A stretch of 64,000 nt of DNA from Bacteroidota bacterium (GCA_021155905.1 JAJNBG010000002.1:62001-126000); one strand, 5' to 3'; counted from the stretch's first letter, positions 13,171 through 41,137 are shown. The notes: a model not told the origin generated them from the letters alone. Numbers and translations: made by a program.

Positions 13171-13244
13171 ATTTAATTTCGTTTTTTAGATAATAGGCAA
13201 TCGTATTTTCCTAAGCTCATTATTTTTTCTTTAATTTGCCGGAT

Positions 13245-14486: not shown

Positions 14487-17400
14487 ATGAAAAAACTATT
14501 TTTTACTTTTTTAATCAGCCTTTCTTTAACATCATTCGGACAAGTCCCTCAGGAAATCAGTTACCAGGGTGTGGCCCGGAATGCGAGCGGATCCTTATTA
14601 TCCAATCAGAACATAGGTATAAAACTCGATCTGCATCAGGGCAGTGCCGGTGGTGCCGTTGTGTTTTCTGAAACACACAGTAAAACAACAAACTCTTTTG
14701 GTTTGTTTACCCTGGGAATAGGTTCAGTTAACACGGCTGCTTTTACAGCAATTAACTGGGCAAACGGGCCATACTTCATGGAAGTATCTATGGATCCGGC
14801 AGGAGGGAGTTCATACACCTCGGTGGGAACACAACAGTTCATGAGTGTGCCTTATGCTCTCTATGCGAAAACAGCCGGGAATGTCAGTCCAACGCCAACT
14901 ATTGCTATCAATGCACCAAATACGGTAACATCTGCCGGTGGAGGATATACTATCAATATTCCAGCATCAGCTACATATTCTGCCGGAACAGGTATCAACG
15001 TGAGTGGTAATACAATCTCAAATACTGCGCCTGACCAAACTGTTGTGTTAAATGCAGCGGGCGCTACTACCGTAACAGGAACTTATCCTAACTTCACGAT
15101 TAATACCCCAACTTCGCAGACTTATTCGGCCGGGAACGGGATTGACATTACGGGTGGTGTGATTAGCAACACAGCTGCAGCGGTTACTCCAACTATTGTT
15201 GGAACTGGCGCAACTACGGTAACCGGAACTTATCCTAACTTAACCATTGCAAGTCCTACAACCCAGGCTTATTCAGCGGGTAACGGAATTGATATTACCG
15301 GAGGTATTATCAGTAATACAGCAGCAGCGGTAACACCAACTATTGTTGGAACCGGTGCAACCACTGTAACGGGAACTTATCCAAACCTGACTATTAACAC
15401 GCCAACTGTAGCTCCTGACCAGGTTGTGTCCTTAACAGGTACAGGTACGGCTACTGTAACAGGTGCTTACCCAAGTTTCACAGTGAATGTGCCTTCGGGA
15501 AGTTCATTGCCTACAGGGTTTAACGGGCAGTTCTTATTCAATAACGGAACCATCTGGGATACATTGCCAAGGCCAAATTTGTTTTTTGACGGAACTAATT
15601 TTGGTGTCGGGACTACTGCGCCGCAGGCTACCTTTCATGTGGTTGGCGCAGGAAGATTTGATGCGAGCGTTTCAACTCCCCAAATTTATACAGACAATAT
15701 TAAAATTACAGGTGGTAATGCTGGTCAGGTTTTAACCAGTGATGCTATAGGGAATGGTACATGGCAGGCAATTCCTTCACCAACACTTACATATAATAAC
15801 GGTACAAATGTGTTAACATTAACTCAGGGAACAATCGTTACAACCGCAACTTTGGTCGGAACAGGGTCTAATACCGTGAGTATTGTTGGTTCGGGTTTAG
15901 CTACAGTTACCCCAACAACGGGAAGTACATTTACGGTAAGTGTTCCTAATCCTACATTAACTATAACAAGTGGTTCATTATCTATTAGTAACGGTAATTC
16001 CGTTGCTTTTCCGAGCCCGAGTTTAACCATTAATTCAAATTCATTAACGATTAATGGCCCTGGAGGTAATACAGTAGTATTGCCAACAGCATCCACTACT
16101 TCATTGACACAAGGTTCTAATATAACGGTTTCAGGTTCTGCACCAAATTACACGGTGAGTGCGCCGGCTTATTCCATCAGTTTACCCGGTGGCAACACGG
16201 TTCAGCTTACCAATGGTGTCAGTACCAGTACAGCAGCAATCAATGCAACCAGTTTGACTTTGACTGGAGCTGGCAATAATATTTTATCAGCAGGTGGAAA
16301 TACCGTTGCTTTAAATACTTATACCGCCGGGTCAGGAATTACGGTGTCAGGTACCGCACCAAACTATACTTTATCTTCTCCTAACCAGTCACTAACCATT
16401 AACAGTAACTCTCTTTCCATTACAGGTGGTAATACAATCACATTACCAACGAGCTCAACAACTACCTTGACACAAGGCGCAGGAGTGACTGTGGCAGGTT
16501 CTGCACCAAGTTATACAATTTCCTCAGCCAGCCAGTCTTTGGCAGTTTCCGGTAATTCATTATCTATTACGGGAGCTAACACAGTAACTATTCCAACATC
16601 TTCGGTAGTCGCAGGAAACACAAACATCACCATAGCAACTTCCGGTAATACTTATTCAGTGAGTGCCGTTACTCCCACATTAAATGTTGTTGGAGGAGCA
16701 TTGGCAGGTATTTACCCAAGCCAGACCTTAACGATTCCAACATCAAGTACTACTGCAATTACAGCAAGTACAGGAATTACGGTGACAGGCGCCGCACCTA
16801 ACTACACTTTATCTTCTCCAAATCAATCATTATCTGTGACCGGTAATTCATTATCAATTACAGGAGCTAATACGGTTACCATACCAACAACATCAGTAGT
16901 TGCAGGAAATGCTAATATCATTGTCAATCAGTCCGGAAATACTTTTTCTGTCAGTTCAGTAGCTTCGCCGTTATCTTTAACAGGAACAACGTTGACGTCA
17001 GGCCCGGCCACAAACTCAGTAAACCTTGCACCGTTAAGTGTCTGGTCAAGATCAGCAACTTCTGTATTCCCTTCAACCTTAACAGATAAAGTGGGAATTG
17101 GAACAAATGCACCGGCATTTAAATTGGATGTTACCGGTAATGGTCGATTCACAACAGGAATCCAATCTAATGGCCAGGTTTATATTGCTAATAGTGGTAA
17201 TTATCAGAGTTTTGCTGTTTCTGAGTTCGGTGGGTTAGGAGCAGGTATTAACTTGCAGGCTACCGGAGTAGGCGGCCGCAGCTATACAATGTATTCAGAA
17301 AATGGCAGCGGGCTTTTACAGATTTTTGATGAAACCGCCAGTGCTGTCCGCATGGTTATCAACCAATATGGAAGAGTTGGATTAGGAAGTATATCACCGA

Positions 17401-19661
17401 ATCAACGCTTAGATGTACGTGGAAATATTGGATTGGATTCATCTTTGCTTTGGCAGGGTTTAAACTCTATGCCTCAGACTTCTTCCGGTGGAAATGGGCG
17501 GATTTATTTCGACCGGACTTCTCAAAAATTCAAAGTATCTGAAAACGGTGGAGCTTATGTTGACATGATTAGCGGAGCTGGTTCATCTCCGTGGCTTCAG
17601 GGCGCAGGTATCATTACACAAAATAATCCCGGTGATATGGTTGGTATTGGGACAGTTGCCCCGAGTTCACCACTTCATGTATACGGAATATCAGATCCTC
17701 TACAGATTACGGTAGAAAATGGAGGTGGAAACTTTGCAACAGGATACCATATAAAAACAGGTTTAGGCCAGGAATGGTTTATGGGGCAGGACGGGTCTTC
17801 TTCAACAGGGTTCCGCATTACAGATAAGGATGCTTTTGCTGTGCGATTTCAGATCGACCAGGATGGTAGAACGGGAATAGGAACTACATCAGCAAGTGAA
17901 AAACTGGATGTGAACGGAAATGTAAAACTGGATTCTTCATTAATGGTGACAGGTTTAACATCAGTTCCTCCAACTTCTAATGGTGGTAACGGCCGGATTT
18001 ATTTTGATCAGGTATCCGGAAAATTTAAAGTTTCTGAAAACAGTGGACCTTATGTTGACATGATTGGTGGTGGAACATCTCCCTGGATTCAGGGGGCTGG
18101 AATGATAACACAAATGAACTTAGGTGATTTGGTCGGTATTGGAACTTCCTTACCGGAGTATAGACTGGATGTCAGAAATTCTTCTGATGTATTAATAAAT
18201 TTAAGTAGCTCTGCGAGCACACAGGGAACTCAGGCAGGTTTAAGACTTTCCATGTTTGATGGTTACGTTGGCAAGCAATATACGTTAGCTGCTGAAAAGA
18301 CTGATGCCACAGTAAATTCCGGAGCTTCTGATTTTGTTATAAAATCACATTATTCTACTGCGGGTGGTACATTAAATAACATGGTTATCAAAGGCCAGGA
18401 TCTCATTTTTAATGAAAGTAAAACCACAGGATTTGATTTTGGAAATGTTATAGTTGCTAGTGGATATTTAGGAGTGGGGACTGGCTCACCTTCGGCAAAA
18501 CTTGATGTAAATGGAAATATAAAAGCAGATTCGTCATTGATGTTATCGGGAATGGGCACAGTTCCACCAATTTCATTCGGTGGCAGTGGCCGGATCTTTT
18601 TCGACCAGATTTCCGGGAAATTTAAAGTTTCAGAAAACGGTGGTGGATATGTTGATTTGATTAGTAGTACAGGCAGTGACTGGGGCTTAAGCGGTAACGC
18701 ATTAACAGGAACTGAATTTTTAGGTTCTACAAACGCGCAGGATGTTGTATTTAAGTCAGCTGGTACGGAATTGATGCGCCTTTTATCTAACAACTCTATT
18801 ACTTTTACGGCCGGGCAATATTCTATGACGGCTTCTACTGCTGTAAACCCGGCATTAACCATCACGGGAGCCAATTTTCGTTCAACGCAGCTGAATATGA
18901 AAACCACTGCTGCTGTTACAGGCGTAGGAAATTTAGGTTCCATAAGTTTCTCAGACGGAACAAACAGTACGACACAGGCATATATTCAAGGTCAACGTGA
19001 AGCAGCAAGCGGCGGGGCATCTGATTTACCTACAGCCCTTTTATTTTTTACAACAGCGGATGGTTCAGGTACTGAAGGTGAACGAATGCGTATTAATAAT
19101 GCAGGAAAGGTGGGTATAGGAACACAAGTTCCTTCGGCAATGCTTCATGCTTTGAATGCTGCAAACACTGGTTCGTCAGGGCGTTTTGAAAATAATTCAA
19201 CGACCAACACAGCGGATGCAGTTTTTGTTCAGAATTCGGGTACCGGCGCCGGTGTTCATATTGTAGCAACGGCCACTTCAACACTAGGTTTATTGTTGGA
19301 GAACGCTCACATGAAATCGACAGCATCTGTTTCTCCTGGAACGAGTACGGTTTCTGTTTCAGGTATAAATACTATTGCTCTTACTCCAACCGGATGCACT
19401 GATGTAAAAGGAAATATATTGGCTGTTGTTACGCATTCAGGAAATATCGCTATAAATAACTCTGTTACCTATCGTGTAACATTTGCCAAACCTTATCAAA
19501 TTTCACCTACAGTAATACTAACCCCGACAACGGATTTTGGAATCATGAGTTATTATATTTCAGCAATTAGTAGTACTTCATTTAATGTAACGATTCGTTG
19601 TACTTCAAATACAGGTGAGACGCGCACGAACTTTGGTTTAAATTATTGGGTAATTGAATAA
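14487..19661 (+). CDS. Giant exported fibre-like repeat protein
   Basis: This 1724-residue protein starts with a signal peptide (MKKLFFTFLISLSLTSFGQ). The next 130 residues (VPQEISYQGVARNASG ... FMSVPYALYAKTAG) are the N-terminal domain common in Bacteroidota tail-fibre-like proteins. From about 140 to 870 it consists of S/T/N/G-rich beta repeats of the kinds GNGIDITGGxISNTA, NSLSITGxNTV and TGTYPNLTI, with at least two nearly exact 49-residue units. From about 960 to 1390 there are three units that combine LDVNGN, DSSLM, GGxGRIYFDQ.SGKFKVSENGG.YVD and GIGTxxP, typical of phage tail-fibre and trimeric adhesin shafts. The C-terminal 100 residues form a separate beta-rich domain. The self-cleaving endosialidase chaperone motif is absent, and so is a recognisable T9SS sorting domain. 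Role as a surface fibre or adhesin is inferred. Confidence 0.85.
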   Translation: MKKLFFTFLISLSLTSFGQVPQEISYQGVARNASGSLLSNQNIGIKLDLHQGSAGGAVVFSETHSKTTNSFGLFTLGIGSVNTAAFTAINWANGPYFMEVSMDPAGGSSYTSVGTQQFMSVPYALYAKTAGNVSPTPTIAINAPNTVTSAGGGYTINIPASATYSAGTGINVSGNTISNTAPDQTVVLNAAGATTVTGTYPNFTINTPTSQTYSAGNGIDITGGVISNTAAAVTPTIVGTGATTVTGTYPNLTIASPTTQAYSAGNGIDITGGIISNTAAAVTPTIVGTGATTVTGTYPNLTINTPTVAPDQVVSLTGTGTATVTGAYPSFTVNVPSGSSLPTGFNGQFLFNNGTIWDTLPRPNLFFDGTNFGVGTTAPQATFHVVGAGRFDASVSTPQIYTDNIKITGGNAGQVLTSDAIGNGTWQAIPSPTLTYNNGTNVLTLTQGTIVTTATLVGTGSNTVSIVGSGLATVTPTTGSTFTVSVPNPTLTITSGSLSISNGNSVAFPSPSLTINSNSLTINGPGGNTVVLPTASTTSLTQGSNITVSGSAPNYTVSAPAYSISLPGGNTVQLTNGVSTSTAAINATSLTLTGAGNNILSAGGNTVALNTYTAGSGITVSGTAPNYTLSSPNQSLTINSNSLSITGGNTITLPTSSTTTLTQGAGVTVAGSAPSYTISSASQSLAVSGNSLSITGANTVTIPTSSVVAGNTNITIATSGNTYSVSAVTPTLNVVGGALAGIYPSQTLTIPTSSTTAITASTGITVTGAAPNYTLSSPNQSLSVTGNSLSITGANTVTIPTTSVVAGNANIIVNQSGNTFSVSSVASPLSLTGTTLTSGPATNSVNLAPLSVWSRSATSVFPSTLTDKVGIGTNAPAFKLDVTGNGRFTTGIQSNGQVYIANSGNYQSFAVSEFGGLGAGINLQATGVGGRSYTMYSENGSGLLQIFDETASAVRMVINQYGRVGLGSISPNQRLDVRGNIGLDSSLLWQGLNSMPQTSSGGNGRIYFDRTSQKFKVSENGGAYVDMISGAGSSPWLQGAGIITQNNPGDMVGIGTVAPSSPLHVYGISDPLQITVENGGGNFATGYHIKTGLGQEWFMGQDGSSSTGFRITDKDAFAVRFQIDQDGRTGIGTTSASEKLDVNGNVKLDSSLMVTGLTSVPPTSNGGNGRIYFDQVSGKFKVSENSGPYVDMIGGGTSPWIQGAGMITQMNLGDLVGIGTSLPEYRLDVRNSSDVLINLSSSASTQGTQAGLRLSMFDGYVGKQYTLAAEKTDATVNSGASDFVIKSHYSTAGGTLNNMVIKGQDLIFNESKTTGFDFGNVIVASGYLGVGTGSPSAKLDVNGNIKADSSLMLSGMGTVPPISFGGSGRIFFDQISGKFKVSENGGGYVDLISSTGSDWGLSGNALTGTEFLGSTNAQDVVFKSAGTELMRLLSNNSITFTAGQYSMTASTAVNPALTITGANFRSTQLNMKTTAAVTGVGNLGSISFSDGTNSTTQAYIQGQREAASGGASDLPTALLFFTTADGSGTEGERMRINNAGKVGIGTQVPSAMLHALNAANTGSSGRFENNSTTNTADAVFVQNSGTGAGVHIVATATSTLGLLLENAHMKSTASVSPGTSTVSVSGINTIALTPTGCTDVKGNILAVVTHSGNIAINNSVTYRVTFAKPYQISPTVILTPTTDFGIMSYYISAISSTSFNVTIRCTSNTGETRTNFGLNYWVIE
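15121..15414 (+). repeat. 49-codon tandem repeats in the fibre gene
   Basis: Two in-frame units of 147 nt (15121-15267 and 15268-15414) encode nearly the same peptide, AGNGIDITGGxISNTAAAVT and following. Related weaker units continue on both sides. Between the two copies the DNA differs mainly at third codon positions. Confidence 0.75.
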
Positions 19662-19665
19662 TCTG

Positions 19666-20436
19666 ATGAGATACTATTTAGTTTTTATATTTGTTTTTGG
19701 GATTGTTATAAAACATTCCGGTCAAACCATTAGTCCTTCTGTGATAAATTCGGCGGGCGGTGGTGGAGCAGTTGGAACGACCGGTATTGAAACCTATTAC
19801 AATATCGGCGAGCCGATGGTCTCAACCATCAATAATAGTTTTTATGCTATCACCCAGGGTTTTTTGCAGCCGGACATTGTTGGTGAATTTGCCCTGACCC
19901 TTACACCATTGTTTCAGAATGAAAGTTGTTTGAGTAAAAAAGATGGTTTTATTTCTTTGGTGCTAAACACTGCTCCAGGTTCCGCTGCACAGGTTTTATA
20001 TATATGGAGCCCTTCCTCTGTTTGTCCTGCCCAGAATTGTACGAGTGTTGATAGTTTGTCTCCGGGAACTTATAGTATCACGGTTAAAGCTGTAAACGCT
20101 GCTAATGCAGTAATTGATTCTGTTTTCTTTAGTTATACAGTTGTTGCTAATGTAGAACCATGTCTGATTACTGTTTATAATGGTTTCACACCCGATGGCG
20201 ATGGTATCAATGATACCTGGATCATAGAAAACATTGAAAATTATCCTACCAACTCGGTTTCCATTTTTAACCGATGGGGAACCAAAGTATGGAACACATC
20301 CAATTATGATAATGGACAGAATAGATGGGATGGAAAAAACAATAATGGTGCAGAACTGACAAGTGGGACTTATTTTTATGTGATTGAAATTGAGAACGGT
20401 GTCAAGAAAGGCTGGGTCGAATTGTCGGGTAGGTAA
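19666..20436 (+). CDS. Small exported protein with type B T9SS sorting domain
   Basis: ATG 19666 is chosen over the TTG at 19654, which overlaps the previous gene; it gives a signal peptide MRYYLVFIFVFGIVIKHSGQ. The middle part (YNIGEPMVSTI, ITQGFLQPDI) is of a kind common at the start of Bacteroidota T9SS cargo. A short Ig/SprB-like segment follows (VLYIWSPSSVC..NCTSVDSLSPGTYSITV). The last 85 residues are a type B ('gliding motility-associated') C-terminal domain: VYNGFTPDGDGIND, VSIFNRWGTKVW, WDGKNNNGAEL, SGTYFYVIEIENG, KKGWVEL. The protein should be exported by the T9SS. It begins 4 nt after the fibre gene and ends 11 nt before the protease gene, so the three are probably one transcript. 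A role as partner or anchor of the fibre protein is a guess from position. Confidence 0.9.
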   Translation: MRYYLVFIFVFGIVIKHSGQTISPSVINSAGGGGAVGTTGIETYYNIGEPMVSTINNSFYAITQGFLQPDIVGEFALTLTPLFQNESCLSKKDGFISLVLNTAPGSAAQVLYIWSPSSVCPAQNCTSVDSLSPGTYSITVKAVNAANAVIDSVFFSYTVVANVEPCLITVYNGFTPDGDGINDTWIIENIENYPTNSVSIFNRWGTKVWNTSNYDNGQNRWDGKNNNGAELTSGTYFYVIEIENGVKKGWVELSGR

Positions 20437-20447
20437 AAAATTTAAAA

Positions 20448-23400
20448 ATGAAAAAGAAAATAAAGATAGTCTTATTTTTAATGTTGGGGATTTTGAGTAT
20501 AAAAGCTCAGTTACCCAACAGGGGCTGTGGTACAAAGGCACCAGGCAGTCAGTATGATTCTTTGTTTCAGCAGAAGGTTATTGATTTTTTGAATGCTAAT
20601 TCTTCTCTCAGCAGAGTACAAACGACTTATCAGATTCCTGTAATTATTCATGTCATTCATGGTGGGGAGTCAGTTGGTACTTATCCTAATATAGCACAGG
20701 GACAAATAAATTCTCAGATTTCTGTTCTTAATGATGACTATGGAGGTATAGGTTTTAATTCTGGTAATTACCCCGCCACGGCTTTCCAGACTTATGCAAC
20801 AAATACAGTAATTGCTGCTGCAAGTAAAGATGGATCAAATAGAATAGGGATTTCAAATACAGGAATAACGTTTTGTCTTGCCTTAAAAGATTCTGTTGGT
20901 AATATTTTACCTGAGCCCGGAATCGAACGTATGCATTGGAATACGATATCGGGCGCTTCCAACCCAACAACTTTTACAACCAGTTCAGGCTTTACAAATT
21001 TCATGAATACTGTGGTAAAACCGGCAACGATATGGAGTTCGAATAAATACCTGAATATATGGGTTTCTGATATCAATGCATCTGCAGGGTTATTAGGATT
21101 TACAGCGTTTCCTCCGTTATCAGGATTAAGTGGAATATCAGGCGCGGGTACAGCAACAACAGACGGTTTATGGTGCTGGGCAAAAGCATTCGGGACCCAG
21201 AATATTTTTCCATCGGGGATTTATTCCGCACCCTATAATTATGGAAGAACTGCTACGCATGAGCTCTCTCATTATTTTGGCATCAGGCATATCTGGGGTG
21301 ACGGAACCTGTTTAACGGATTATTGCAACGATACTCCTGCACAGCAGGATGCTACTTATATTTCACCTTCACCTACTTATCCCTATTTACCAAATGATTG
21401 TCCGTCAAATACTCCTCCAACCGGAACAAATGGTATCATGTTCATGAATTTTTCAGATTATACAGAAGATGCGGGTATGTACATGTTTACAGATGAACAG
21501 AAGGCAAGGATGCAAACTGCTATGGCCAACAGCCCATACAGGAATCAGTTGGGTACGCATGGAATATGTTCAGCAGGAGGCGCTACGGTTATAGCTAATT
21601 TTTCATTTACTCCATCGTCAATATATCAGGGTCAATCAATTTCGATCACTGATATGTCAACTTCAACTTCTCCACCGATTATAGCCTGGAATTATTTTTC
21701 TGCAGCTTCTACGGTTACTGCAAGTGCCCTTCAGAACCCTGCTTTTACATTTAATACCGCGGGGGTTCATACCATTTCGCTTACTATAACATCTGCTGGC
21801 ACTAATGCGTCTACGACAAAAACGCTGCAGGTCAATGTTTGTCCGAGTCCCACAGTTATCGTTAATACGATCAATACAACCTGTTCTGGTTTATGTAACG
21901 GCTCTGTGACTATGTTAGCGAATGGAGGTGGACCTTTCAGTTATAGTTGGACACCGTCAGTTTCTTCATCCTCCGTAGCTGCAAATTTATGCGCCGGAGT
22001 TTACACTTGTGTAATCACCAACAGTTGTGGTGTTTCAGTAACAAAAGTAGCTAACATTACTTCACCATCTCCTTTAAATTTATCCATTAATGTTTCGGGG
22101 GCGCCGGTTTGTTTAGGTGGTTCTGTCAATTTGGCTTCAAATGTCGGTGGTGGAACGCCTTCTTATTTATATAACTGGAGCACAGGTTCTAATTTATCGG
22201 CAGTTACCGTTACACCTGCAATAATTCCTGCTACAGTTTATAGTCTTACAGTGACTGACAACCAGGGATGTACAAAAACCCAGACTGTTTCTGTCGGTGT
22301 TAATCCTGTTCCTTCTATTACTGTTACGCCACAGAATCAAACCATTTGTCCTGGTAAACCTGCTACTCTTACTTTATCGGGTGCGCAAAATTTCACCACC
22401 AACCCGGGCGCAATAACTCTTCCTTCCTTTACAGTGAGCCCTTCATCAACAACTGTATATACTGTTACAGGTACGAGTCCGTTTGGTTGTGTAGGTTCGA
22501 AAAAGGATACCGTTAAAGTTGCTATTCTTCCTAATATATTTTCCAATGTTAGTTCTCCTACTGTTTGTCTGGGTTCAGGCATTACATTTACAAATAGCGG
22601 AGGCGCAACTTATACTCTTAATCCATCGGGCCTGACAGGTAATATAATAAACGTATCACCTTCAGTTTTAGGAACCACGATTTATACGATTTCAGGAACA
22701 GGCCCATTTGGTTGTATCAATACAAAAACGGTTGGCATCTCCGCATTTAGTGTGCCGGTGGTTTCTGTTACACCAGGTAGTACAACAATTTGTTCAGGTA
22801 AAACAGTAGTGCTTAATGCATCAGGCGCCAGTTCTTATACATGGGCGGGATCAGGAGCAGTATCAAATTCTATCAGTGTCTCTCCAACAACAGGTACAAC
22901 GTATTCAGTGATCGGAAGAAGTTCCAGTGGATGTGATAATTCAGCTTCATCATCTGTGAGCGTAGTGACACAGCCTATCGTGAGTATTAATTCACCTTCC
23001 ACCAGTGTTTGTTTTGGTTATACGATGACAGCTGTTGTTAATGGCGCAAATAGTTACCAATGGTCGACCGGTGCCACCACCAATACGATTATGATTCAGC
23101 CGTTTTCAGCAAATGTGTATAGTGTGATTGGCACTAATAATGGCTTTTGTTCTGACACCGCGTTTTTATCCATCACCGTATTGCCTTTGCCATCTGTTTC
23201 TTCCTCTGTGAGTCAAACCATGGCCTGTATTGGCCAATCAATTGTATTGAATGCAACAGGTAATTCAGTACAATATTACTGGCAGCCAGATACTTTGATA
23301 GGTGCAACTCATACGGTTCAGATCCTTGCGCCAACAACTTATACCGTTTATGGACAAGGTTCAAACGGATGCTTTTTTTATAGTACTTCTTTTGTGGATG

Positions 23401-23900
23401 TGCAGGCGGGCAACTCCGTGATCCCTGTTGCTACGCCGAGTGCTGTTTGTATTGGCGATTCGGCTATCCTTTCGGTTGTTGGTGGATCTGTTCCTTTGTG
23501 GAGCACTCATCCTGTGCCAAATACAGAAGCTGTTTCTCCTGTTGTACCTACTTCTTATACAGTAAGTGCCATGGACCTGTCCGGATGTATTTCTGATATT
23601 GTCTTTAATGTTGATATTAATTCAAATTGTGACATGATTATCTATACAGGTTTTACTCCAAATGGTGATGGTATCAATGATTTTTTAACGATCGATAATA
23701 TTGACAAGTTTCCTAACAATAAGGTGTCTATTTACAATCGCTGGGGGAACAAAATCTTTTCAACTTCCGGTTATCATAACCAGAACAATAACTGGGATGG
23801 AAAACAAAATGGTAAGCTAGTTGGATCAGGTACATACTTTTATGTTATTGAATTTGAAAATGGAATTAAAAAAGGTTGGATTGAATTAACAGGAAAATGA
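20448..23900 (+). CDS. M43-family zinc metalloprotease with PKD/Ig-like repeats and type B T9SS sorting domain
   Basis: The 1150-residue protein has a signal peptide (MKKKIKIVLFLMLGILSIKAQ) and then a propeptide-like segment with PVIIHVIHGGESVG. The pappalysin/cytophagalysin catalytic domain follows. Its zinc motif HELSHYFGIRH (H271, E272, H275, H281) fits HExxHxxGxxH of family M43. The expected Met-turn region reads MNFSDY (333-338), with Ser where relatives usually have Met. A PKD domain (about 380-465; FSFTPSSIYQGQSISITD) and several cysteine-paired Ig-like repeats of about 70 residues lead to the sorting domain (about 1061-1150; FTPNGDGIND, YNRWGN, NNWDGK, GTYFYVIEFENG). The last 310 residues closely resemble the end of the following giant adhesin. 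Likely a secreted or surface protease; the substrate is unknown. Confidence 0.94.
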   Translation: MKKKIKIVLFLMLGILSIKAQLPNRGCGTKAPGSQYDSLFQQKVIDFLNANSSLSRVQTTYQIPVIIHVIHGGESVGTYPNIAQGQINSQISVLNDDYGGIGFNSGNYPATAFQTYATNTVIAAASKDGSNRIGISNTGITFCLALKDSVGNILPEPGIERMHWNTISGASNPTTFTTSSGFTNFMNTVVKPATIWSSNKYLNIWVSDINASAGLLGFTAFPPLSGLSGISGAGTATTDGLWCWAKAFGTQNIFPSGIYSAPYNYGRTATHELSHYFGIRHIWGDGTCLTDYCNDTPAQQDATYISPSPTYPYLPNDCPSNTPPTGTNGIMFMNFSDYTEDAGMYMFTDEQKARMQTAMANSPYRNQLGTHGICSAGGATVIANFSFTPSSIYQGQSISITDMSTSTSPPIIAWNYFSAASTVTASALQNPAFTFNTAGVHTISLTITSAGTNASTTKTLQVNVCPSPTVIVNTINTTCSGLCNGSVTMLANGGGPFSYSWTPSVSSSSVAANLCAGVYTCVITNSCGVSVTKVANITSPSPLNLSINVSGAPVCLGGSVNLASNVGGGTPSYLYNWSTGSNLSAVTVTPAIIPATVYSLTVTDNQGCTKTQTVSVGVNPVPSITVTPQNQTICPGKPATLTLSGAQNFTTNPGAITLPSFTVSPSSTTVYTVTGTSPFGCVGSKKDTVKVAILPNIFSNVSSPTVCLGSGITFTNSGGATYTLNPSGLTGNIINVSPSVLGTTIYTISGTGPFGCINTKTVGISAFSVPVVSVTPGSTTICSGKTVVLNASGASSYTWAGSGAVSNSISVSPTTGTTYSVIGRSSSGCDNSASSSVSVVTQPIVSINSPSTSVCFGYTMTAVVNGANSYQWSTGATTNTIMIQPFSANVYSVIGTNNGFCSDTAFLSITVLPLPSVSSSVSQTMACIGQSIVLNATGNSVQYYWQPDTLIGATHTVQILAPTTYTVYGQGSNGCFFYSTSFVDVQAGNSVIPVATPSAVCIGDSAILSVVGGSVPLWSTHPVPNTEAVSPVVPTSYTVSAMDLSGCISDIVFNVDINSNCDMIIYTGFTPNGDGINDFLTIDNIDKFPNNKVSIYNRWGNKIFSTSGYHNQNNNWDGKQNGKLVGSGTYFYVIEFENGIKKGWIELTGK

Positions 23901-24016
23901 TGCGTTGCTGGTGGTATTTCTACTTATAAATGAAAATGACTTAGGGGCAAATTACGGCAGTAAAAAATTGAATAAAAAGAATGTTTTTTAAGTATATTAA
24001 TTTGAAAACAATATTG

Positions 24017-32398: not shown

Positions 32399-32404
32399 AA
32401 CAAG

Positions 32405-33352
32405 ATGAGAAAGATATTTTTAATACTTAGCTGTACGATCGCATTGCCGGTTTTGTCACAACAGGATCCGCAATACAGTCAGTACCAATTTAACCAAATG
32501 GTTATTAATCCTGCTTATGCAGGAACAAAAGATGCGTTAAGTGCAGTAGTTGATGTCAGGAGACAATGGAGTGGTTTCGACGGCGCCCCATCCACACAAT
32601 CATTCAGCTTTCACGGGCCTTTAAAAAAGAAAAGAATAGGTTTGGGAATCAGCGCATATAATGATGCAATCGGTCCGAAACGGGTGACCGCAGCTTATGG
32701 TAATATTTCTTATATCCTGCCTGTATCGAGTACAATGAAATTGTCCTTTGGAATCAGAGCGGGCGTGGTGAATTATGTATTTGATTTTAATAAAATGAAT
32801 TACAAAGATGCCGGTGAAACGAATGCTGTTTCAAGTATCGCCGCTAACCGGTTAAAACCGGATTTTGACGCGGGGCTTTATTTGAAATCCAATTCATTTT
32901 ATGCAGGGATTAGCGCCACCCATTTAAACGCGGCTTATATTTACCAGGATAAAATTGCTTATACCAGCGTTTCAGGTAGCCAGGTGGAGTATGACCTGAC
33001 CTATAAGTTGAATACCCATATTTTTGGGATCATCAGTAAAGGTTTTGCCATGAATGATAACCTGGTAATCAATCCTGCCATCATTTACAAAGGAACAAAG
33101 GCTGTTAACAATGTGGATGCCAATTTGAATTTTTTAATTAAGCAACGTTTGTGGCTGGGAGTATTCTACAGGTCTGAGGCTACTGTAGGTGCACTGCTGC
33201 AGGTGTATGTGACTAATTCCTTTAAAGTTGGTTACGCGTTTGATACTGGTATCAGTAGAGTGCAAAAGCGTTTAGGAAATGGACACGAAATTATGATCGG
33301 TTTTGATTTTAATACATTTAAGTCTAAAACTTTATCGCCGCGTTATTTATAA
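32405..33352 (+). CDS. PorP/SprF family type IX secretion membrane protein
   Basis: This 315-residue protein has a signal peptide (MRKIFLILSCTIALPVLSQ). The family signature follows at once: DPQYSQYQFNQMVINPAYAG, then VVDVRRQWSGFDGAPSTQSF, then beta strands suited to an outer-membrane barrel and a C-terminal strand ending LSPRYL. In Flavobacterium johnsoniae SprF is needed for surface delivery of SprB, and cargo with type B sorting domains is generally linked to such PorP/SprF partners. The gene follows the giant adhesin by 6 bp, so it most likely serves that adhesin, and perhaps the protease and the small type B protein upstream. Whether it is also the core T9SS PorP cannot be told, since no gldKLMN genes lie here. 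Confidence 0.93.
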   Translation: MRKIFLILSCTIALPVLSQQDPQYSQYQFNQMVINPAYAGTKDALSAVVDVRRQWSGFDGAPSTQSFSFHGPLKKKRIGLGISAYNDAIGPKRVTAAYGNISYILPVSSTMKLSFGIRAGVVNYVFDFNKMNYKDAGETNAVSSIAANRLKPDFDAGLYLKSNSFYAGISATHLNAAYIYQDKIAYTSVSGSQVEYDLTYKLNTHIFGIISKGFAMNDNLVINPAIIYKGTKAVNNVDANLNFLIKQRLWLGVFYRSEATVGALLQVYVTNSFKVGYAFDTGISRVQKRLGNGHEIMIGFDFNTFKSKTLSPRYL

Positions 33353-33371
33353 AATTATTGACCCACTACTT

Positions 33372-36038
33372 ATGAGAAAAAACAATTTCTTTATTACCTC
33401 TTTGCTTTTAGTATCTCTTGGCTGCTTTGGTCAGATGAAAAAAGCAGAAAAGCATTTTACGAATTTTAATTATGCGAAAGCGATTCCGGTTTATGAAAAA
33501 GTCGCGAAGGGAAATTCCGCTGATCGTCAAAAAGCCATGATTAAATTGGCCGACTGTCACAGGATCTTAAATAACTATGCTGAAGCGGAGAGTTATTATG
33601 CTAAAGCGATAGGAATTGGCAAAGTGCCTTCGGAAGTTAATTATAATTATGGTAATGTACTGAAGTCCAATAATAAATACACGGAAGCTTTAACACAGTA
33701 TTCTTTATTTTTAGCGGAGAATCAGAATAGTGCAACTACCAAAAACGCCATTAAATCCTGCCAGGAAATTAAATTCTGGGAATCAAAACCAAAGGAATAT
33801 GAGGTTAAAAACATGGAGGCTATCAATACCAAACGTTCGGAATTCAGTCCATTTGTATTGAACAATCAATTGATCTTTGTGGGAGAAAAAGTAGCGGACA
33901 TTGTTGACTTCGAAAAATCAGCTACTAATAATCAGCCTTTCCTGGATATTTTTTCTGCTGAGATTAAAAACAATGAATTAAAAAAAGAAAAATTATTATC
34001 CAAAAAAATCAACTCAAGCTACCACGATGGACCGATTACTTTTTCAGCGGATGGAAAAACAGCGGCCTATACCCGCGTTAACTACATTGTAAACAAGAAA
34101 GATAAAAATTTCATCAACCGCGCGAAGATCTATTTCAGTGAGGTGAAAGGCAAATCTTTTTCCAAGCCAAAATCATTTGTTCATAACAGTGATGATTATT
34201 CCTGTGCGCATCCTACTTTAAGTGCAGACGGAAATACCTTATATTTTTCTTCTGATATGCCCGGCACGCTGGGTGGACAGGATATCTGGATGTGCAGGAA
34301 GAATGGGGAAAACTGGGATAAACCGGTAAACCTTGGGTTTGATATTAATACATCCGGTGACGAAGTTTTTCCATCGGTTAAAAAGGATGGTACCTTGTTT
34401 TTTTCCTCCAATGGTTTACCGGGTTTTGGAGACCTGGATATTTTTTCCGCAAAACAAGTTGACGGGAAATGGTTGCTGAACCGCAATGAGGGCTTATACC
34501 TGAACAGCAAGGCAGATGACTTTGGAATCACTTTTTTAAATGATTCTATCGGGTATTTTTCTTCCAATCGTGAAGGTGGAAAAGGAGAAGACGATATTTA
34601 CTACTATAAATTCACCAATAAGAATATTTCTGTAGACGGAATTGTTCTATTGACTGAGAATGTGAACGATCCTGCAAAAAACGTGAAAGTGTATTTATTG
34701 GATGGCGACAGTAAGGCTCTTGATTCTACATTAACAAATGAAATAGGTTATTTTGTCTTCAGGGATCTGGATGCAGATAAAACTTACATGGCGGAGATTG
34801 AAGGAACAGAAGCGAACCTGAAAAATAAATCAAGATATTACCTGGCCGATAAAGATTCGAAGATTACGAGGATTACTCACAATGGCGGATCCGGGCAAAA
34901 ATTTGTTTTTAAAAATCTGCCTGTTGATCCGAATGGAATGCCTGATTTGTATAATGATGATGACTTAAGTTTGGCAGGTAATTTATTATATGGAGAAAAT
35001 CCTAGTAAACCAATTGCTAACAAAAAAGTGATCATCAAAAATGAATATGGAGATATTGTAGAGGAAACTACAACGAATGAGTTTGGAGCATTTGCATTCA
35101 GGAACCTGCCATTGGATCAAAACTATTCCATCACCGTAGTAGATGATGATATGCCGGTAAATGCTAAAATTATTATGACGAGCAAAAGCGGAAAAGAGGT
35201 TAAGGTTGCGCGTTCCGATTCAAAAGGTAATTTTAAGTTCTCATTGTTAGCTGTGGATAAATCGGCAATTTCTGATCTGAATGTAGATGATAAAGACCTG
35301 ATCATGAATCTGAACGGCTATTTGTATGATCAGGATAAAAAAGCAATCAGCAACGCCAGGGTTACTATTTTTAATAAGAATGAAGTGATTGAAAATATTA
35401 TTACAGACAGTAAAGGAAAGTTCACTTTCAAAAATCTGGGAACTGATCAGAATTATTTATTCAGCATTGATGATTCGGATCCGCGCATGAAGAGTGTGAC
35501 GAAAGTATATGTGGCCGATGCAAAAGGGAGAATCTACCGTGAAATAAATCGTGATGCTAAAGTTGGTTTTCAATTTAGCCTGATCGAAGTAGATAAAACG
35601 GCGATGGGTGAGTATTCTGTTGAAGATCCTTGGCTGGAAGTATTGAGTATGAAAAACAAGGAAATGCAGAAGGCTATTACGATTATTGAAAGCCTATATT
35701 ATGCATATGGTGATTATGAAATTGACGCGGCCGGTCAGAATATTCTTGACAAAGTAATCACGGTTCTGAATTCTAATAAAAATTTGAATATGGAAATTAG
35801 CTCTCATACGGATTCGAGAAGCTCGTCTGAATTTAATATGTCTTTATCTCAAAAAAGAGCGAGGGCTGCGGTAGATTATATTATTTCTAAAGGAGTAAGT
35901 AGATCGAGACTAAAAGCGGTTGGTTATGGAGAGACAAGGCTGTTAAATAAGTGCAAAAACGATGCAGACTGCACGGAAGAGGAGCATGCTAAGAACAGAA
36001 GAACTGAATTTAAGATTGTTGAAGTTGGAAAACTTTAA
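33372..36038 (+). CDS. PorE-like TPR/propeller/carboxypeptidase-regulatory/OmpA protein
   Basis: ATG 33372 gives a signal peptide (MRKNNFFITSLLLVSLGCFGQ); the frame upstream of it overlaps the PorP/SprF gene. Of 888 residues, the first 130 form TPR repeats (HFTNFNYAKAIPVYEKVAKG, AESYYAKAIGIG). A WD40/PD40-type propeller spans about 150-420 (SADGNTLYFSSDMPGTLGGQ, KKDGTLFFSSNGLPGFGDLD). Several carboxypeptidase-regulatory or CNA-B-like repeats follow (GYFVFRDLDADKTYMAEIEG and relatives). The end is an OmpA peptidoglycan-binding domain (EISSHTDSRSSSEFNMSLSQ, RLKAVGYGETRLLNKC). This order equals that of PorE of Porphyromonas gingivalis, which tethers the T9SS to peptidoglycan. It starts 19 bp after the PorP/SprF stop. 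Together they look like a dedicated outer-membrane export and anchoring pair. Confidence 0.92.
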   Translation: MRKNNFFITSLLLVSLGCFGQMKKAEKHFTNFNYAKAIPVYEKVAKGNSADRQKAMIKLADCHRILNNYAEAESYYAKAIGIGKVPSEVNYNYGNVLKSNNKYTEALTQYSLFLAENQNSATTKNAIKSCQEIKFWESKPKEYEVKNMEAINTKRSEFSPFVLNNQLIFVGEKVADIVDFEKSATNNQPFLDIFSAEIKNNELKKEKLLSKKINSSYHDGPITFSADGKTAAYTRVNYIVNKKDKNFINRAKIYFSEVKGKSFSKPKSFVHNSDDYSCAHPTLSADGNTLYFSSDMPGTLGGQDIWMCRKNGENWDKPVNLGFDINTSGDEVFPSVKKDGTLFFSSNGLPGFGDLDIFSAKQVDGKWLLNRNEGLYLNSKADDFGITFLNDSIGYFSSNREGGKGEDDIYYYKFTNKNISVDGIVLLTENVNDPAKNVKVYLLDGDSKALDSTLTNEIGYFVFRDLDADKTYMAEIEGTEANLKNKSRYYLADKDSKITRITHNGGSGQKFVFKNLPVDPNGMPDLYNDDDLSLAGNLLYGENPSKPIANKKVIIKNEYGDIVEETTTNEFGAFAFRNLPLDQNYSITVVDDDMPVNAKIIMTSKSGKEVKVARSDSKGNFKFSLLAVDKSAISDLNVDDKDLIMNLNGYLYDQDKKAISNARVTIFNKNEVIENIITDSKGKFTFKNLGTDQNYLFSIDDSDPRMKSVTKVYVADAKGRIYREINRDAKVGFQFSLIEVDKTAMGEYSVEDPWLEVLSMKNKEMQKAITIIESLYYAYGDYEIDAAGQNILDKVITVLNSNKNLNMEISSHTDSRSSSEFNMSLSQKRARAAVDYIISKGVSRSRLKAVGYGETRLLNKCKNDADCTEEEHAKNRRTEFKIVEVGKL

Positions 36039-36065
36039 ATTTTTAGACTAATATTTATTAATTTT

Positions 36066-36091
36066 AAAACATAGACTTTTGTCTATGTTTT
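36066..36091. terminator. Perfect hairpin terminator after the OmpA gene
   Basis: AAAACATAGAC and its exact complement GTCTATGTTTT form an 11-bp stem around a TTTT loop, 27 bp after the OmpA stop codon. The A and T ends would work in both directions. It also shows that the longest reading of the next gene (TTG at 36079) starts inside the hairpin and is wrong. Confidence 0.7.
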
Positions 36092-36111
36092 ATTGTTTTA
36101 ATTATCATCAC

Positions 36112-39100
36112 ATGAAAAAAATTTACTTTTTAATTATTGCTTTATTTTCTCTTCAGGGTTTTTCTCAAAAAGATTATTCCCGGTATTATAATTCCTGGCG
36201 GTTGGGTTTGAACCTGGGCGGTGCATGGCAAACGGCAGATTATAGAAGCTGCTGGGGAATGGCCGGTGGTTTTACGCTGGAGAAAGGACTGCATGAAAAC
36301 AGCACTAACTTTTTTTCCTTTGCTATCAGGGGGCGTTATCTTGCTGCAAATACTTATGGGATGGATTTCAACAGGAATTACGATGTGAAAAGTAATGACG
36401 CCTACAATGGAAAATACGATCCTGTGGTAAATTTTGTGGACAGTGTTCCTTTAAACAGGCAATATGTTTTTGATAATTATAAAACGACGCTGGGTGAAGG
36501 ATCTCTGGAACTACAATTATCATTTAATCGTTTGCGCGAACGCACGCATGTGATACTGAACTTATGGGGTGGAGTAGGAGTGACAAGCTACCGGACGAAA
36601 TCGGATTTACTGGATGGCGATAAAAAAATGCACGACTTCAGCCTGGTTGATTCCACAGGGAATAAAACCAAAGCGTTGAATTCTTATAATGGCCTGATCG
36701 ATAAAAATTATGAATCGTATGCGTATGGTAGCCGGAACGGCAATCTTGTCACTTTTTCACCTTCAGCCGGTATTGGTTTAGGGTATCAGGTCTCTCCGGG
36801 CTTTTCTGTTTTGTGGGAATACAAACTCACCCTGCCACAGGGAACAAATGCGGATTTACTCGATGGTAAATTGAGCATGAATAATGACGGAATAGGAGGG
36901 AATAATGATTATTACCATTACACAGGATTGAACCTGTTGTTTACGTTAAGAGGAAAGAAAAAAACAAAAACCACGGTACCAAAAGACGAAACGGTTTATA
37001 CCAATACAACCGTGCCAACGAATACAACCACTGTTCCAACAACTTCCATTGCACCAACCAATAGTGTAGTTATCACTCCGCAACCGACTACCACGGTTAC
37101 ATCATTGCCTCCAAAAGAACAAAGACCTGCTGTTACATTTATCACTCCGTCTTCAAACGGTATTGTTGTCGCCAATCAGCAGTATAAAATTTCCGCGCAG
37201 GTATTGAATGTATCTGCTTCCAATAAGATTCAATTTAAATTTAATGGAACAGTGCATACTGATTTTATGTATAATGCCCAGACACATATATTGGAATATA
37301 ATGCCGTCCTGAGTAAAGGGACCAACTCGGTGCAGATCACTGCATCCAATACGGCCGGATCTGATACAAAACAAACCACCGTTGTTTTTGAGAAGCCTAA
37401 TGTAGTGACAGGTAATCCACCTCTGGTGTCCTATATCAGCCCCGGTCAACCGGGGACAACCGTATCCGTAAAAACATATACGGTCAGGGCTCAGGTATTA
37501 AATGTGTCAGAGAAAAAGAATATTTCGGTGTATGTTAATGGTATGTCAGCGCCATTTGTTTTTAATGCGGTTAATAAACAAATTGCTCTCACCGTCGAAC
37601 TAATTGAAGGATCAAATAACATCAGTATTACGGCAAACAATACGTCCGGGGAAGATACGAAGATCAGTACTATTAATTTTAGCGAGAATAAACCTAATGG
37701 TATTCCTCCGGTAGTTAATCTGATTAACCCTGCAACTGACATAAACACGACGAATAATTTAATGTATAATTTTAAATTGTCGGTGTTGAATGTTGCTTCC
37801 AAAAATGACATCATCATGATGCTGAATGGAAACCAGGTGAGTAGCTTCACATATGATCCGGCTTCGAAGTTTGTGGACCTTTCCATTAATCTGGTAGCCG
37901 GTGATAATACACTAATCGTAAAAGGAAACAATGCATTTGGAACAGACTCAAAAACGATTCGAGTAAATTATCAGTCGCCGGAAAAAGCAAAAACTCCACC
38001 CGTGCTGACGGTCACTACTCCATCGAGTTCCCCCGCAACTTCTTCAGTATCAAATTATATTTTCAGGGCCAAGGTGACTAATGTGAGTGCAAAATCTCAG
38101 GTAACGGTAAAATTTAACGGAAATAATGTTCCTAATTATGTATTTACGTTTCCGAATATTATCTGTCCGGTGACACTAATCCAGGGAAATAATATTTTTG
38201 AAGTAACAGCCACTAATAACGATGGTGTGGATACGAAAAATGCAATCGTTAACTTCAAGCAGAAAGACATACCTGTGCTTCCTATAATAAACTTAATCAA
38301 TCCTTCTGCAATACTAAACAACGTGACTGTTTCTTCGTATACATTCAAATTAGGGGTTTTAAATGTTAGTTCCAGGTCGGATATCGAAGTAGTTTTTAAC
38401 GGTAGCATTCAATCTAATTTCACTTACGATCCCGCATCAAAAGAATTGGTTTTCCAAACCAATCTGGCTAAGGGTAACAATAGCTTATTGGTGAAAGGAA
38501 CGAATCCGTCGGGTTCAGATTCAAAGCAAATTACTGTCATTTACACTGCGCCGGTTGAAATGAAAGCTCCGCCTTTTGTAACCATAAGTCATCCTTCATC
38601 AGACGGAACGACTACCACAAACCCTAGCCATACATTTAAAGCTACTGTATCGCACATTGAAAACACAACCGGAATTACTGTGAAGTTTAACGGAAACATT
38701 ATTACTAGTTACACTTACGATGGTTTTAATCTGACTTATCCTGCAGTGTTGGTACAAGGGAGTAACAAGTTTGAAATTAAGGCGGTTAATAATGATGGAG
38801 CAGATATTAAGAGCAGGATAGTAAATTACCGCGTCATTACGACTCCGGTTCCTCCTACAGTTAATTTAATAACACCTGCATCCGTTGAAAATGTTACGGA
38901 AAATGCCGTATATAATTTCAAATTATCGATACTCAAGGTAAATTCAAAAGCAGATATTGAAGTATTATTTAATGGCATTTCACAGTCAAATTTCACCTAT
39001 GATACAACAAGCAAAGAAGTGAACTTCCAGTCTAATTTAGTTGTAGGAGAAAATACGCTTCTTGTAAAAGGAACAAATCAACACGGATCAGACTTTAAAC

Positions 39101-39963
39101 AAATAAAAGTCACATATACACCGCATACGGAGCTTAAGAATCCACCATCGATTACTTTTGTTAATCCCGCTAATGGTAGTGGCGTTTCTCAGTCTGCAAA
39201 TTTTGTATATCAGGCATCCATTACCCAGATTCCAAACGTAAATGGTTTGACAGTGAAATACAATGGAGTGGTTGTTTCTAATTTTACTTATGATGGCGCG
39301 ACTTTGACCTATTCGGCAGGTTTACTTCCTGGAAACAACAGCCTGCAAATTGCAATTCATAACAACGATGGAAGCGAAGAGAAAACCGCTGTTGTGAATT
39401 ATAAGCCTATTGAGGTAGTGAAACCTCCGGTGATTGTTATTTTACAGCCCGTGAATACACCAACGGTTACAATTCCGGCTTTTACATTTCAGTTTAAAGT
39501 GATGAATGCAATAAAAAAACAAATTGAAGTGACGTTCAATGGAACGCCAGTCACTTCCTATAATTTTGTTTCAACGGTCGGAAGTTTTTCAACTAATTTG
39601 GCTCCAGGAACAAACACCTTAACGGTAAAGGCTACAACCTCGGGCGGAACGCAGGCTAAGACAGCACAAATTATATATGTGCCGCAGGACTCAGCAATAC
39701 ATGACGATGGTGGAAGAAAAATGATCATTTGTCATTTTCCTCCAGGAAATACCCAGAATCCACAAACACTTACAATACCAATTACAGCGTGGCCTGCGCA
39801 TCTGGCACATGGCGATACTGAAGGGAGCTGTCCTTCAAAAAATGACAGCATAAAGGTTCAGCAAAAACCCATTAAAAATTTAGATGGTGAAGGCCAGCCA
39901 GAAAAGGAAGGAACTGGCACACCAGCAGAAAAACCTATTATTACTCCAAGAAAGCCTCGCTAA
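36112..39963 (+). CDS. Outer-membrane barrel protein with nine Ig-like modules and a CHxPPGN motif
   Basis: ATG 36112 yields a signal peptide (MKKIYFLIIALFSLQGFSQ); 1283 residues. Residues 20-285 look like an outer-membrane barrel (alternating strands, GLGYQVSPGFSVLWEYKLTL). A Thr/Pro-rich linker (about 290-345) comes next. Nine Ig-like modules of about 95 residues follow, each with NVS.K..I.V.FNG, FTYD and G.N...V...N..GSD.K; modules 3/5/7 and 4/6/8 resemble each other, so the unit of duplication is a pair (573 nt). Near the C-terminus is MIICHFPPGNTQNPQTLTIP, then WPAHLAHGDTEGSC. This motif recurs in many secreted bacterial proteins and has, to my knowledge, no settled function; its Cys and His residues suggest metal binding. 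There is no T9SS sorting domain. A barrel with outward-facing Ig arms is inferred. Confidence 0.85.
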   Translation: MKKIYFLIIALFSLQGFSQKDYSRYYNSWRLGLNLGGAWQTADYRSCWGMAGGFTLEKGLHENSTNFFSFAIRGRYLAANTYGMDFNRNYDVKSNDAYNGKYDPVVNFVDSVPLNRQYVFDNYKTTLGEGSLELQLSFNRLRERTHVILNLWGGVGVTSYRTKSDLLDGDKKMHDFSLVDSTGNKTKALNSYNGLIDKNYESYAYGSRNGNLVTFSPSAGIGLGYQVSPGFSVLWEYKLTLPQGTNADLLDGKLSMNNDGIGGNNDYYHYTGLNLLFTLRGKKKTKTTVPKDETVYTNTTVPTNTTTVPTTSIAPTNSVVITPQPTTTVTSLPPKEQRPAVTFITPSSNGIVVANQQYKISAQVLNVSASNKIQFKFNGTVHTDFMYNAQTHILEYNAVLSKGTNSVQITASNTAGSDTKQTTVVFEKPNVVTGNPPLVSYISPGQPGTTVSVKTYTVRAQVLNVSEKKNISVYVNGMSAPFVFNAVNKQIALTVELIEGSNNISITANNTSGEDTKISTINFSENKPNGIPPVVNLINPATDINTTNNLMYNFKLSVLNVASKNDIIMMLNGNQVSSFTYDPASKFVDLSINLVAGDNTLIVKGNNAFGTDSKTIRVNYQSPEKAKTPPVLTVTTPSSSPATSSVSNYIFRAKVTNVSAKSQVTVKFNGNNVPNYVFTFPNIICPVTLIQGNNIFEVTATNNDGVDTKNAIVNFKQKDIPVLPIINLINPSAILNNVTVSSYTFKLGVLNVSSRSDIEVVFNGSIQSNFTYDPASKELVFQTNLAKGNNSLLVKGTNPSGSDSKQITVIYTAPVEMKAPPFVTISHPSSDGTTTTNPSHTFKATVSHIENTTGITVKFNGNIITSYTYDGFNLTYPAVLVQGSNKFEIKAVNNDGADIKSRIVNYRVITTPVPPTVNLITPASVENVTENAVYNFKLSILKVNSKADIEVLFNGISQSNFTYDTTSKEVNFQSNLVVGENTLLVKGTNQHGSDFKQIKVTYTPHTELKNPPSITFVNPANGSGVSQSANFVYQASITQIPNVNGLTVKYNGVVVSNFTYDGATLTYSAGLLPGNNSLQIAIHNNDGSEEKTAVVNYKPIEVVKPPVIVILQPVNTPTVTIPAFTFQFKVMNAIKKQIEVTFNGTPVTSYNFVSTVGSFSTNLAPGTNTLTVKATTSGGTQAKTAQIIYVPQDSAIHDDGGRKMIICHFPPGNTQNPQTLTIPITAWPAHLAHGDTEGSCPSKNDSIKVQQKPIKNLDGEGQPEKEGTGTPAEKPIITPRKPR
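37711..39429 (+). repeat. Three 573-nt two-module super-repeats
   Basis: The codons beginning (V)NLI.PA of modules 3, 5 and 7 lie at 37711, 38284 and 38857, exactly 573 nt (191 codons) apart. Module 9 begins at 39430, the next expected position. Odd modules share FKLSVLNV, SKxDIEVxFNG and LLVKGTN; even modules share VTVKFNG, LTYP, NxFEIxAxNNDG and IVNY. Confidence 0.8.
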
Positions 39964-39964
39964 T

Positions 39965-41137
39965 ATGAACTATACCTCATTTGATGATCACACATGGCAG
40001 AATTTATTGCCGCTTACTTTTACAAAACCAGTGTCCGAAATACGTATCGGTATTTTAACCATCACAGAGAAATGGGAAAAATGTCTGGATACTAAAATGT
40101 CTTTTCAAACGCAGGAGTATCTGAACAAAAAATATTCCCCGTCTGCAAATGGAGATACTATTTTTATTAATGGTAGCGTTTGCCCTGATTCTGGTTTAAT
40201 CGAGCAGGTTAAAAATTTGAGTAAAGGAACCGGTATTAAGCAGGGCGAAAAACTGATCGCATTCAGAACCGATAACGTTTTAAATATCACAGAAGCGAAA
40301 GCGGCATCCAAAGAAAGTGACATTACGATATTGGATATTAAAAATGCATGGGATATTTTTTCTAAAAATGGTGAAGCTATTAAACGCGATTTTGAGCTGC
40401 TCACTAAAAACAGAACATCGCTGCCTTTATCCAACAGCAATACAGTGATAGGTGATGCAAAAGATATTTTCCTTGAAGACGGAGCTGTGGTGGAAGCGGC
40501 TATTTTAAACACGAAATCAGGTCCGATATATATTGGTAAGGACGCAGAGATCATGGAAGGTTCTGTTGTGCGCGGACCATTTGCCTTATGTGAGCACTCC
40601 GCATTAAAATTGAGTACGAAAGTGTACGGGCCTACTACCATTGGTCCTCATAGTAAAGTTGGTGGCGAGGTAAACAACTCTGTGATTTTTGGATACAGTA
40701 ACAAAGCACACGACGGTTTTTTAGGAAACAGTGTGATTGGTGAGTGGTGTAATTTAGGCGCTGACACAAACAACTCCAATTTGAAGAATAATTACGGCAA
40801 TGTAAAACTGTTCAGTTATGTCCAGGATAAAATGATCGATACCGGATTACAATTCTGCGGGCTGATCATGGGAGATCATAGTAAATGCGGGATCAATACG
40901 ATGTTTAATACAGGAACTGTGGTAGGTGTAGGCGCTAATATTTTTGGTGGTGGATTTCCTCCCACCCATATTCCCGGTTTCAGCTGGGGTGGGGCAGAAG
41001 GAATGGAAGAATACAAATTTGAGAAGATGGTGGAAACTGCTAACCGGGTGTATGCGCGGAGAAGCTTATCAATGAGCTCAGATGAAAAACAAATTCTGGA
41101 AACGATTTTTAAAGGAGCAAAAAAATACAGGAATTAA
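39965..41137 (+). CDS. Putative Bacteroidota-type GlmU / sugar nucleotidyltransferase with left-handed beta-helix
   Basis: ATG 39965, 1 nt after the preceding stop codon, gives a 390-residue protein with the family start MNYTSFDDHTWQNLLPLTFTKPVSEIRIG. The N-terminal half is the alternative nucleotidyltransferase-like domain of the Bacteroidota 'GlmU family' (TIGR03991): the segment LPLTFTKPVSEIRIGI with TITEKWEK replaces the usual GTRM signature. The C-terminal half is a left-handed beta-helix of hexapeptides (PIYIGKDAEIMEGSVVRGPF, GPTTIGPHSKVGG, VIGEWCNLGADTNNSN). It is thought to supply UDP-GlcNAc for the cell wall and LPS, but the assignment is by family only. It converges with a WcaF-like gene with only 3 bp between the stops. 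Confidence 0.85.
   Translation: MNYTSFDDHTWQNLLPLTFTKPVSEIRIGILTITEKWEKCLDTKMSFQTQEYLNKKYSPSANGDTIFINGSVCPDSGLIEQVKNLSKGTGIKQGEKLIAFRTDNVLNITEAKAASKESDITILDIKNAWDIFSKNGEAIKRDFELLTKNRTSLPLSNSNTVIGDAKDIFLEDGAVVEAAILNTKSGPIYIGKDAEIMEGSVVRGPFALCEHSALKLSTKVYGPTTIGPHSKVGGEVNNSVIFGYSNKAHDGFLGNSVIGEWCNLGADTNNSNLKNNYGNVKLFSYVQDKMIDTGLQFCGLIMGDHSKCGINTMFNTGTVVGVGANIFGGGFPPTHIPGFSWGGAEGMEEYKFEKMVETANRVYARRSLSMSSDEKQILETIFKGAKKYRN

Follow-up and report, generated by a model that had tools for sequence, protein, structure and literature searches.

The locus occupies positions 14487-39963 of the window (the whole 64,000-nt stretch of Bacteroidota DNA that was analysed) and comprises about 25 kb with seven genes, all on the + strand, in the order fibre protein, small type B protein, M43 protease, giant adhesin, PorP/SprF, PorE-like protein and, after a terminator, a barrel protein with Ig-like repeats. 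It is flanked on the 5′ side by a TrkA-type channel gene (13236-14258) and on the 3′ side by a sugar nucleotidyltransferase gene (about 39965-41137). The seven open reading frames lie approximately where the initial annotation had placed them, and its description of gaps of 4-80 bp, a terminator and a barrel/Ig protein holds, except that starts need trimming, most likely to ATG 19666 for the small type B protein, ATG 33372 for the PorE-like protein and ATG 36112 for the barrel protein, giving operon gaps of 4, 11, 80, 6 and 19 bp. The first gene (14487-19661) encodes a fibre protein of 1724 aa with a signal peptide, a MAT-like N-domain (FibN, 14541-14891), a long repetitive shaft and a swapped C-terminal tip. 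Three genes follow whose products end in a type B signal (CHU_C/TIGR04131; Pfam E 2e-28 to 5e-25, above the Pfam cut-off): a 260-aa protein (19654-20436; CHU_C E=2e-28), an M43 metalloprotease of 1150 aa with an Ig-like region and the zinc motif HELSHYFGIRH (20448-23900), and an adhesin of 2805 aa built from about 25 units of 73 aa (23981-32398), which appear at the DNA level as a 219-nt repeat (26750-29022). PorP/SprF, the presumed shuttle and anchor (315 aa, 32405-33352), matches PF11751 at 232 bits and TIGR03519 at 239 bits. The PorE-like protein (33372-36038, 888 aa from ATG 33372; open reading frame 33303-36038) combines TPR, a PD40 propeller, CarboxypepD-like repeats and an OmpA peptidoglycan-binding domain, and matches the PorE model (E 4e-109) and CHU_0125 (E 2e-134), both under the curated, equivalog-level cut-offs. 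Between the operon and the last gene lies an intrinsic-terminator-like hairpin (36065-36092; a 12-pair stem, then a T-rich tract), which as a sequence element is evidently real. The product of the last gene (36112-39963) is predicted to begin as an outer-membrane barrel, after which come Ig-like repeats, variable in number, and at the C-terminus a CHFPPGN...HGD motif. This gene is accessory, missing from several sister loci, and if the barrel has an even number of strands, as is usual, its Ig region would be periplasmic, not outside.

The fibre itself carries no T9SS sorting signal detectable in Pfam (E<=0.001) or in NCBIfam even at E<=10. Its N-domain, recovered by our A3 and A6 profiles, matches NCBIfam NF053851 (Bdello_MAT_N) at 30.3 bits (E=7.6e-7), which does not reach the curated cut-off of 60 bits. 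The same model retrieves 35 of the 36 FibN genes found in 20 genomes and none in 14 control genomes, every score being under the cut-off and the best among all proteins scanned being 46 bits. By profile comparison, FibN is a distant relative of the N-domain of the Bdellovibrio mosaic adhesive trimer (MAT). That domain is described as invariant, without structural homologue in the PDB, and as likely to bind a surface element yet to be found (PMC10769870). The AF2 model of FibN is a confident beta fold (pLDDT 87); a Foldseek search with it returned nothing from the PDB at E<=0.001 and only weak phage-protein matches from BFVD, from which no conclusion is drawn, and sequence comparison of FibN and the small type B protein with solved structures yielded no relative beyond chance. 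The modular habit of the two groups is also alike: both have a signal peptide, a single conserved N-domain, a long shaft and exchangeable tips, S74 as well as non-S74 in Bdellovibrio (PMC10769870), and in Bacteroidota an S74 tip in 5 of 7 relatives scanned, with non-S74 tips occurring too, that of the locus fibre among them. Among the fibres of four genomes of the genus, tips are 15-35% identical and N-domains 78-85%, and clustering separates the fibre tips into 9 groups but places every N-domain in a single one. By analogy with MATs, the Bacteroidota fibre would form a trimer. The Bacteroidota fibres are distant from MATs and differ in being paired with a T9SS protein.

This T9SS protein is the 260-aa product of the second gene, which we propose as a fibre adaptor. 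Its orthologues are 41-68% identical, and the family is conserved outside the type B sorting domain (20167-20421) too. The most conserved part is the short "TQGF" segment (SmN, 19723-19881; A4 profile). In the model of the 256-aa chain from the ATG start, the type B domain (about 90 pLDDT) and a further beta domain are confident, but residues 46-72, the invariant TQGF part, fall below pLDDT 50 when the protein is folded alone, although the segment is short (52 positions) and low pLDDT can also mean too few sequences. In structural comparison, the adaptor model matches many Ig-like arrays and PorU, at TM-scores too low to be informative. The TQGF segment is joined in some proteins to a type A signal and in others to a type B signal (type A being TIGR04183, with 9 of the 10 small proteins tested above cut-off). 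The middle beta domain is missing from most type A adaptors, which consist of little beyond the TQGF segment and the signal. All adaptors thus have in common a T9SS anchor and a short segment, which is what one would expect of a docking peptide. The segment was never found in one frame with a fibre N-domain, every SmN match lying in an open frame of 163-418 aa. The source genome itself holds a second FibN gene (contig C35), directly 5′ of which lies a gene for a 157-aa protein with a TQGF-like segment and a type A signal.

The association of the two genes was examined with the A3 profile for the fibre N-domain and the A4 profile for the TQGF segment, each searched separately in 20 genomes. Of 23 SmN genes, 19 lie no more than 6 kb from a same-strand FibN gene, where chance would give about 0.6% each, and one further gene, close to the end of its contig, adjoins the remnant of a fibre gene, bringing the count to 20 of 23; some A4 seeds came from fibre loci, the genome searches themselves ignoring position. 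Seen from the fibre side, 33 of the 36 fibres have a complete context (three are cut by contig ends), and 27 of these share their gene run with a small T9SS protein, whose signal is type B in 11 cases and type A in 16; most of the small proteins are immediate neighbours of the fibre. Both gene orders occur, usually the small type A protein first, or the fibre and then the small type B protein. Six fibres lack an adjoining adaptor (L199, L200, L243, L246 and two in L245), and adaptors without a fibre were seen at L183, L195 and G006:C32; in L243 (G021:C65) the order is PorP, PorE, fibre. A second sample of 60 genomes across the phylum yielded 17 strong fibres in ten genomes, 15 of them paired, several of the 15 partners being recognised by sorting domain and size with a TQGF score weak or absent. 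The two unpaired cases are L259, where a longer type B protein has no detected TQGF segment, and L256, where the fibre stands alone. In this sample 4 of 5 new TQGF genes lie beside a fibre, and a distant member (L267) keeps the pair. The gene comparison shows that the fibre is almost always encoded beside one small secreted T9SS protein. A limited literature search revealed no earlier report of the pairing, which proves little.

On this evidence the adaptor probably binds the fibre. That the TQGF segment, joined to either main T9SS sorting domain, recognises the MAT-type N-domain of proteins lacking a sorting domain of their own, and so allows signal-less proteins to be exported and/or anchored by the T9SS, seems to us about an even chance. 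The most serious alternative is an ordinary multi-cargo type B/PorP/PorE operon in which the cargos act independently and the fibre is merely co-regulated, taking another route as a periplasmic or independently exported protein. Operons of type B, PorP and PorE genes have been described (PMC9143113, PMC12618676) and abound in the genomes compared. Such a reading leaves unexplained that the fibre is paired with one small family, in both gene orders and with both signal types, and that conservation of this family extends beyond its sorting domain. Bdellovibrio displays MAT fibres and is not known to possess a T9SS, which speaks for independence; all told, we regard independent cargos as unlikely, though well short of implausible.

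Comparison of sister genomes separates constant from variable genes. The order DUF2851, Trk channel, fibre, small type B protein, PorP, PorE, barrel protein and NTP transferase is kept with small losses, and the arrangement, syntenic in several genomes of the genus, is evidently not due to chance. The protease was found only in G000 (the source genome), G007 and G019, and a giant adhesin in G000, G007 and G003; G004, G014, G024, G017 and G008 have neither. The fibre gene is duplicated in G014, G018, G024 and G008. Judged by their distribution, the fibre, the 260-aa type B protein, PorP and PorE make up the conserved core. Protease and adhesin, rejected as core components, are variable passengers, and the combination of protease, fibre and adhesin, which the initial annotation had singled out as the unusual feature, is not supported as the hallmark of the locus; the gene order itself is not unique to it, related loci occurring elsewhere. 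The same distribution bears on the idea of a device for attack or predation, in which fibre tip and adhesin would catch cells for the M43 protease to digest. Such a device would accord with the protease encoded in the operon and with the prey recognition by MAT fibres in Bdellovibrio (PMC10769870). The protease is absent from most sister loci, however, nothing in the operon looked like a toxin or a lytic partner, and related fibre pairs are widespread across Bacteroidota. We know of no predatory habit of Bacteroidota as a group, and consider this function quite improbable.

The remaining core genes, PorP and PorE, belong to a module that is already known and present in many copies. The source genome (4.06 Mb, 67 contigs) contains 20 PorP/SprF matches, 48 CHU_C domains above cut-off, and the T9SS translocon SprA (2414 bits). 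Within the stretches fetched from it, a type B gene lies directly 5′ of PorP in 14 of 19 cases, and a PorE-like gene adjoins 6 of 19, one of the six on the upstream side; one of the six was detected with a wider PorE profile. In named public genomes PorE is downstream of PorP in 76 of 80 related loci, found with a PorP alignment and hence chosen by similarity to the PorP of the locus, and most have a type B gene upstream. F. johnsoniae has five type B operons with a PorE homologue, for example Fjoh_3952/3951/3950 (PMC12618676), which resemble the locus in the order cargo, PorP, PorE, in the cognate shuttle and in the proposed static cell-wall anchoring; our locus differs in having three cargos per shuttle, the constant one being the 260-aa protein after a fibre without sorting domain. 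In P. gingivalis a PG1035-PorP-PorE complex has been isolated and supported by cross-linking (PMC9143113), with a type B protein bound to PorP and PorP contacting PorE; that species has a single type B protein and a single PorP, whereas the source genome has several modules and this locus adds a fibre and extra cargos. In a separate stretch of the source genome (L181, G000:C20), three type B proteins lie within 15 kb, two of them with 95% identical sorting domains, and with no PorP in the stretch fetched their shuttle is likely distant.

Several features of the locus point to a static anchor: C-terminal type B signals, PorP 6 bp downstream of the last of them, an adjoining PorE homologue, and SprA in the genome. 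The three type B signals share 60-67% identity among themselves and no more than 52% with the remaining type B signals of the genome, where the mean over all pairs is 36%, so the dedication of one PorP-PorE pair to several type B cargos, as initially annotated, is borne out; the sharing of one shuttle by similar signals is known (PMC12618676). Across loci, cargo and adaptor signals are 56% identical within and 49% between loci, a difference too small to demonstrate cognate pairing outside the PorP clade. The only cysteine of PorP is residue 10, in the signal peptide, and its C-tail, ending LSPRYL (33332-33349), has none. In gliding SprF, by contrast, the tail must carry a Cys-X-Cys that forms a bond with GldK (PMC12635249), and cargos linked to PorE are regarded as static (PMC9143113, PMC12618676); the absence of a tail cysteine agrees better with a static anchor on PorE than with gliding. 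PorE adjoins 30 of the 33 PorPs ending [ST]PR[YFH] and 11 of 47 other PorPs (Fisher p = 1e-9, too strong a value, orthologues being counted apart). The PorE-adjoining PorPs (that of the locus, L202-L241, L069-L148) mostly end [ST]PR[YF][FL] with no cysteine, unlike the others, and the [ST]PR[YF] tail, lying at the site of the Cys-X-Cys of SprF, is a possible candidate for PorE docking. In another genome, PorP_SprF, TSP_3 and OmpA domains even occur on single polypeptides (L258:6533-8254 and L259:6143-7945), downstream of a fibre gene and a type B gene. Taken together, the shared similar signals, the cysteine-free PorP, the PorE-linked tail and the PorP-OmpA fusions make anchoring through PorP-PorE very likely. 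The cysteine-tail class is a different one: L054 (G000:C15:1-12000) has such a PorP directly 5′ of GldJ, members with a downstream gene of 513-547 aa are also found at L206, L212, L215, L220 and L223 in other genomes, and in L059:3795-5311 (G000:C21) a 185-aa type B protein precedes one directly, with 236- and 653-aa genes adjoining. As in SprB-SprF (PMC12635249), a large repeat adhesin is here encoded with a PorP/SprF shuttle, but without the Cys-X-Cys tail, with PorE adjoining and with the adhesin dispensable. A SprB-like machine in which PorP moves the giant adhesin on a gliding track, an option in the initial annotation, could draw on this adhesin and on a GldJ in the genome (460 bits, just above cut-off), but was rejected as highly improbable, given a mature PorP unable to form the disulfide to GldK (PMC12635249), a PorE neighbour that marks static cargos in F. 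johnsoniae (PMC12618676), sister loci that lack the adhesin, and a different, cysteine-tail PorP next to GldJ.

We prefer to read the operon as encoding a static adhesion complex of the cell surface, in which the adaptor would hold the base of the fibre through PorP-PorE in the type B form, and we consider this overall model reasonably probable. The 260-aa protein would be exported through SprA by the T9SS and stay bound via its type B domain to the neighbouring PorP, which PorE would tie to peptidoglycan; T9SS export, binding of type B proteins to PorP, PorP-PorE contact and PorE-peptidoglycan binding are each known for relatives. The N-terminal TQGF segment, disordered in the lone model, would fold onto the N-domain at the base of the trimeric fibre, so that a fibre without sorting domain would be kept in place, and perhaps brought to the outside as well, its variable tip facing outward, presumably for adhesion. 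Protease and giant adhesin would be optional extra cargos of the same PorP, and in loci where TQGF is fused to a type A signal, the fibre would be displayed by the PorV route. As to the way across the outer membrane, the fibre may be pulled through SprA together with the adaptor, or exported independently and then captured outside. The presumed absence of a T9SS from Bdellovibrio favours independent export and capture, or a different partner there; if MAT-type fibres can be displayed by other means in that organism, the adaptor would not be universal and fibre export need not use SprA.

In sum, the module is ordinary, and it is the conserved fibre-adaptor pair that is informative, the very point absent from the initial annotation. 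The analysis demonstrates the distant homology of FibN to MAT N-domains, which is new, together with the conserved pairing of fibre and small protein, the swap of signal type, the swapping of tips and the natural PorP-OmpA fusions. The small T9SS protein appears to be a good candidate for the anchor that holds MAT-type fibres on the cell. The partner of the invariant N-domain was left open in the description of MATs (PMC10769870), and the Bacteroidota gene pair offers a named, testable candidate. If the proposal is true, no surface partner of a MAT-type N-domain will have been identified before the adaptor, and the T9SS would gain an additional means of displaying proteins that lack a sorting signal; the occurrence of fibres with a signal protein of either type, A or B, would then be accounted for.
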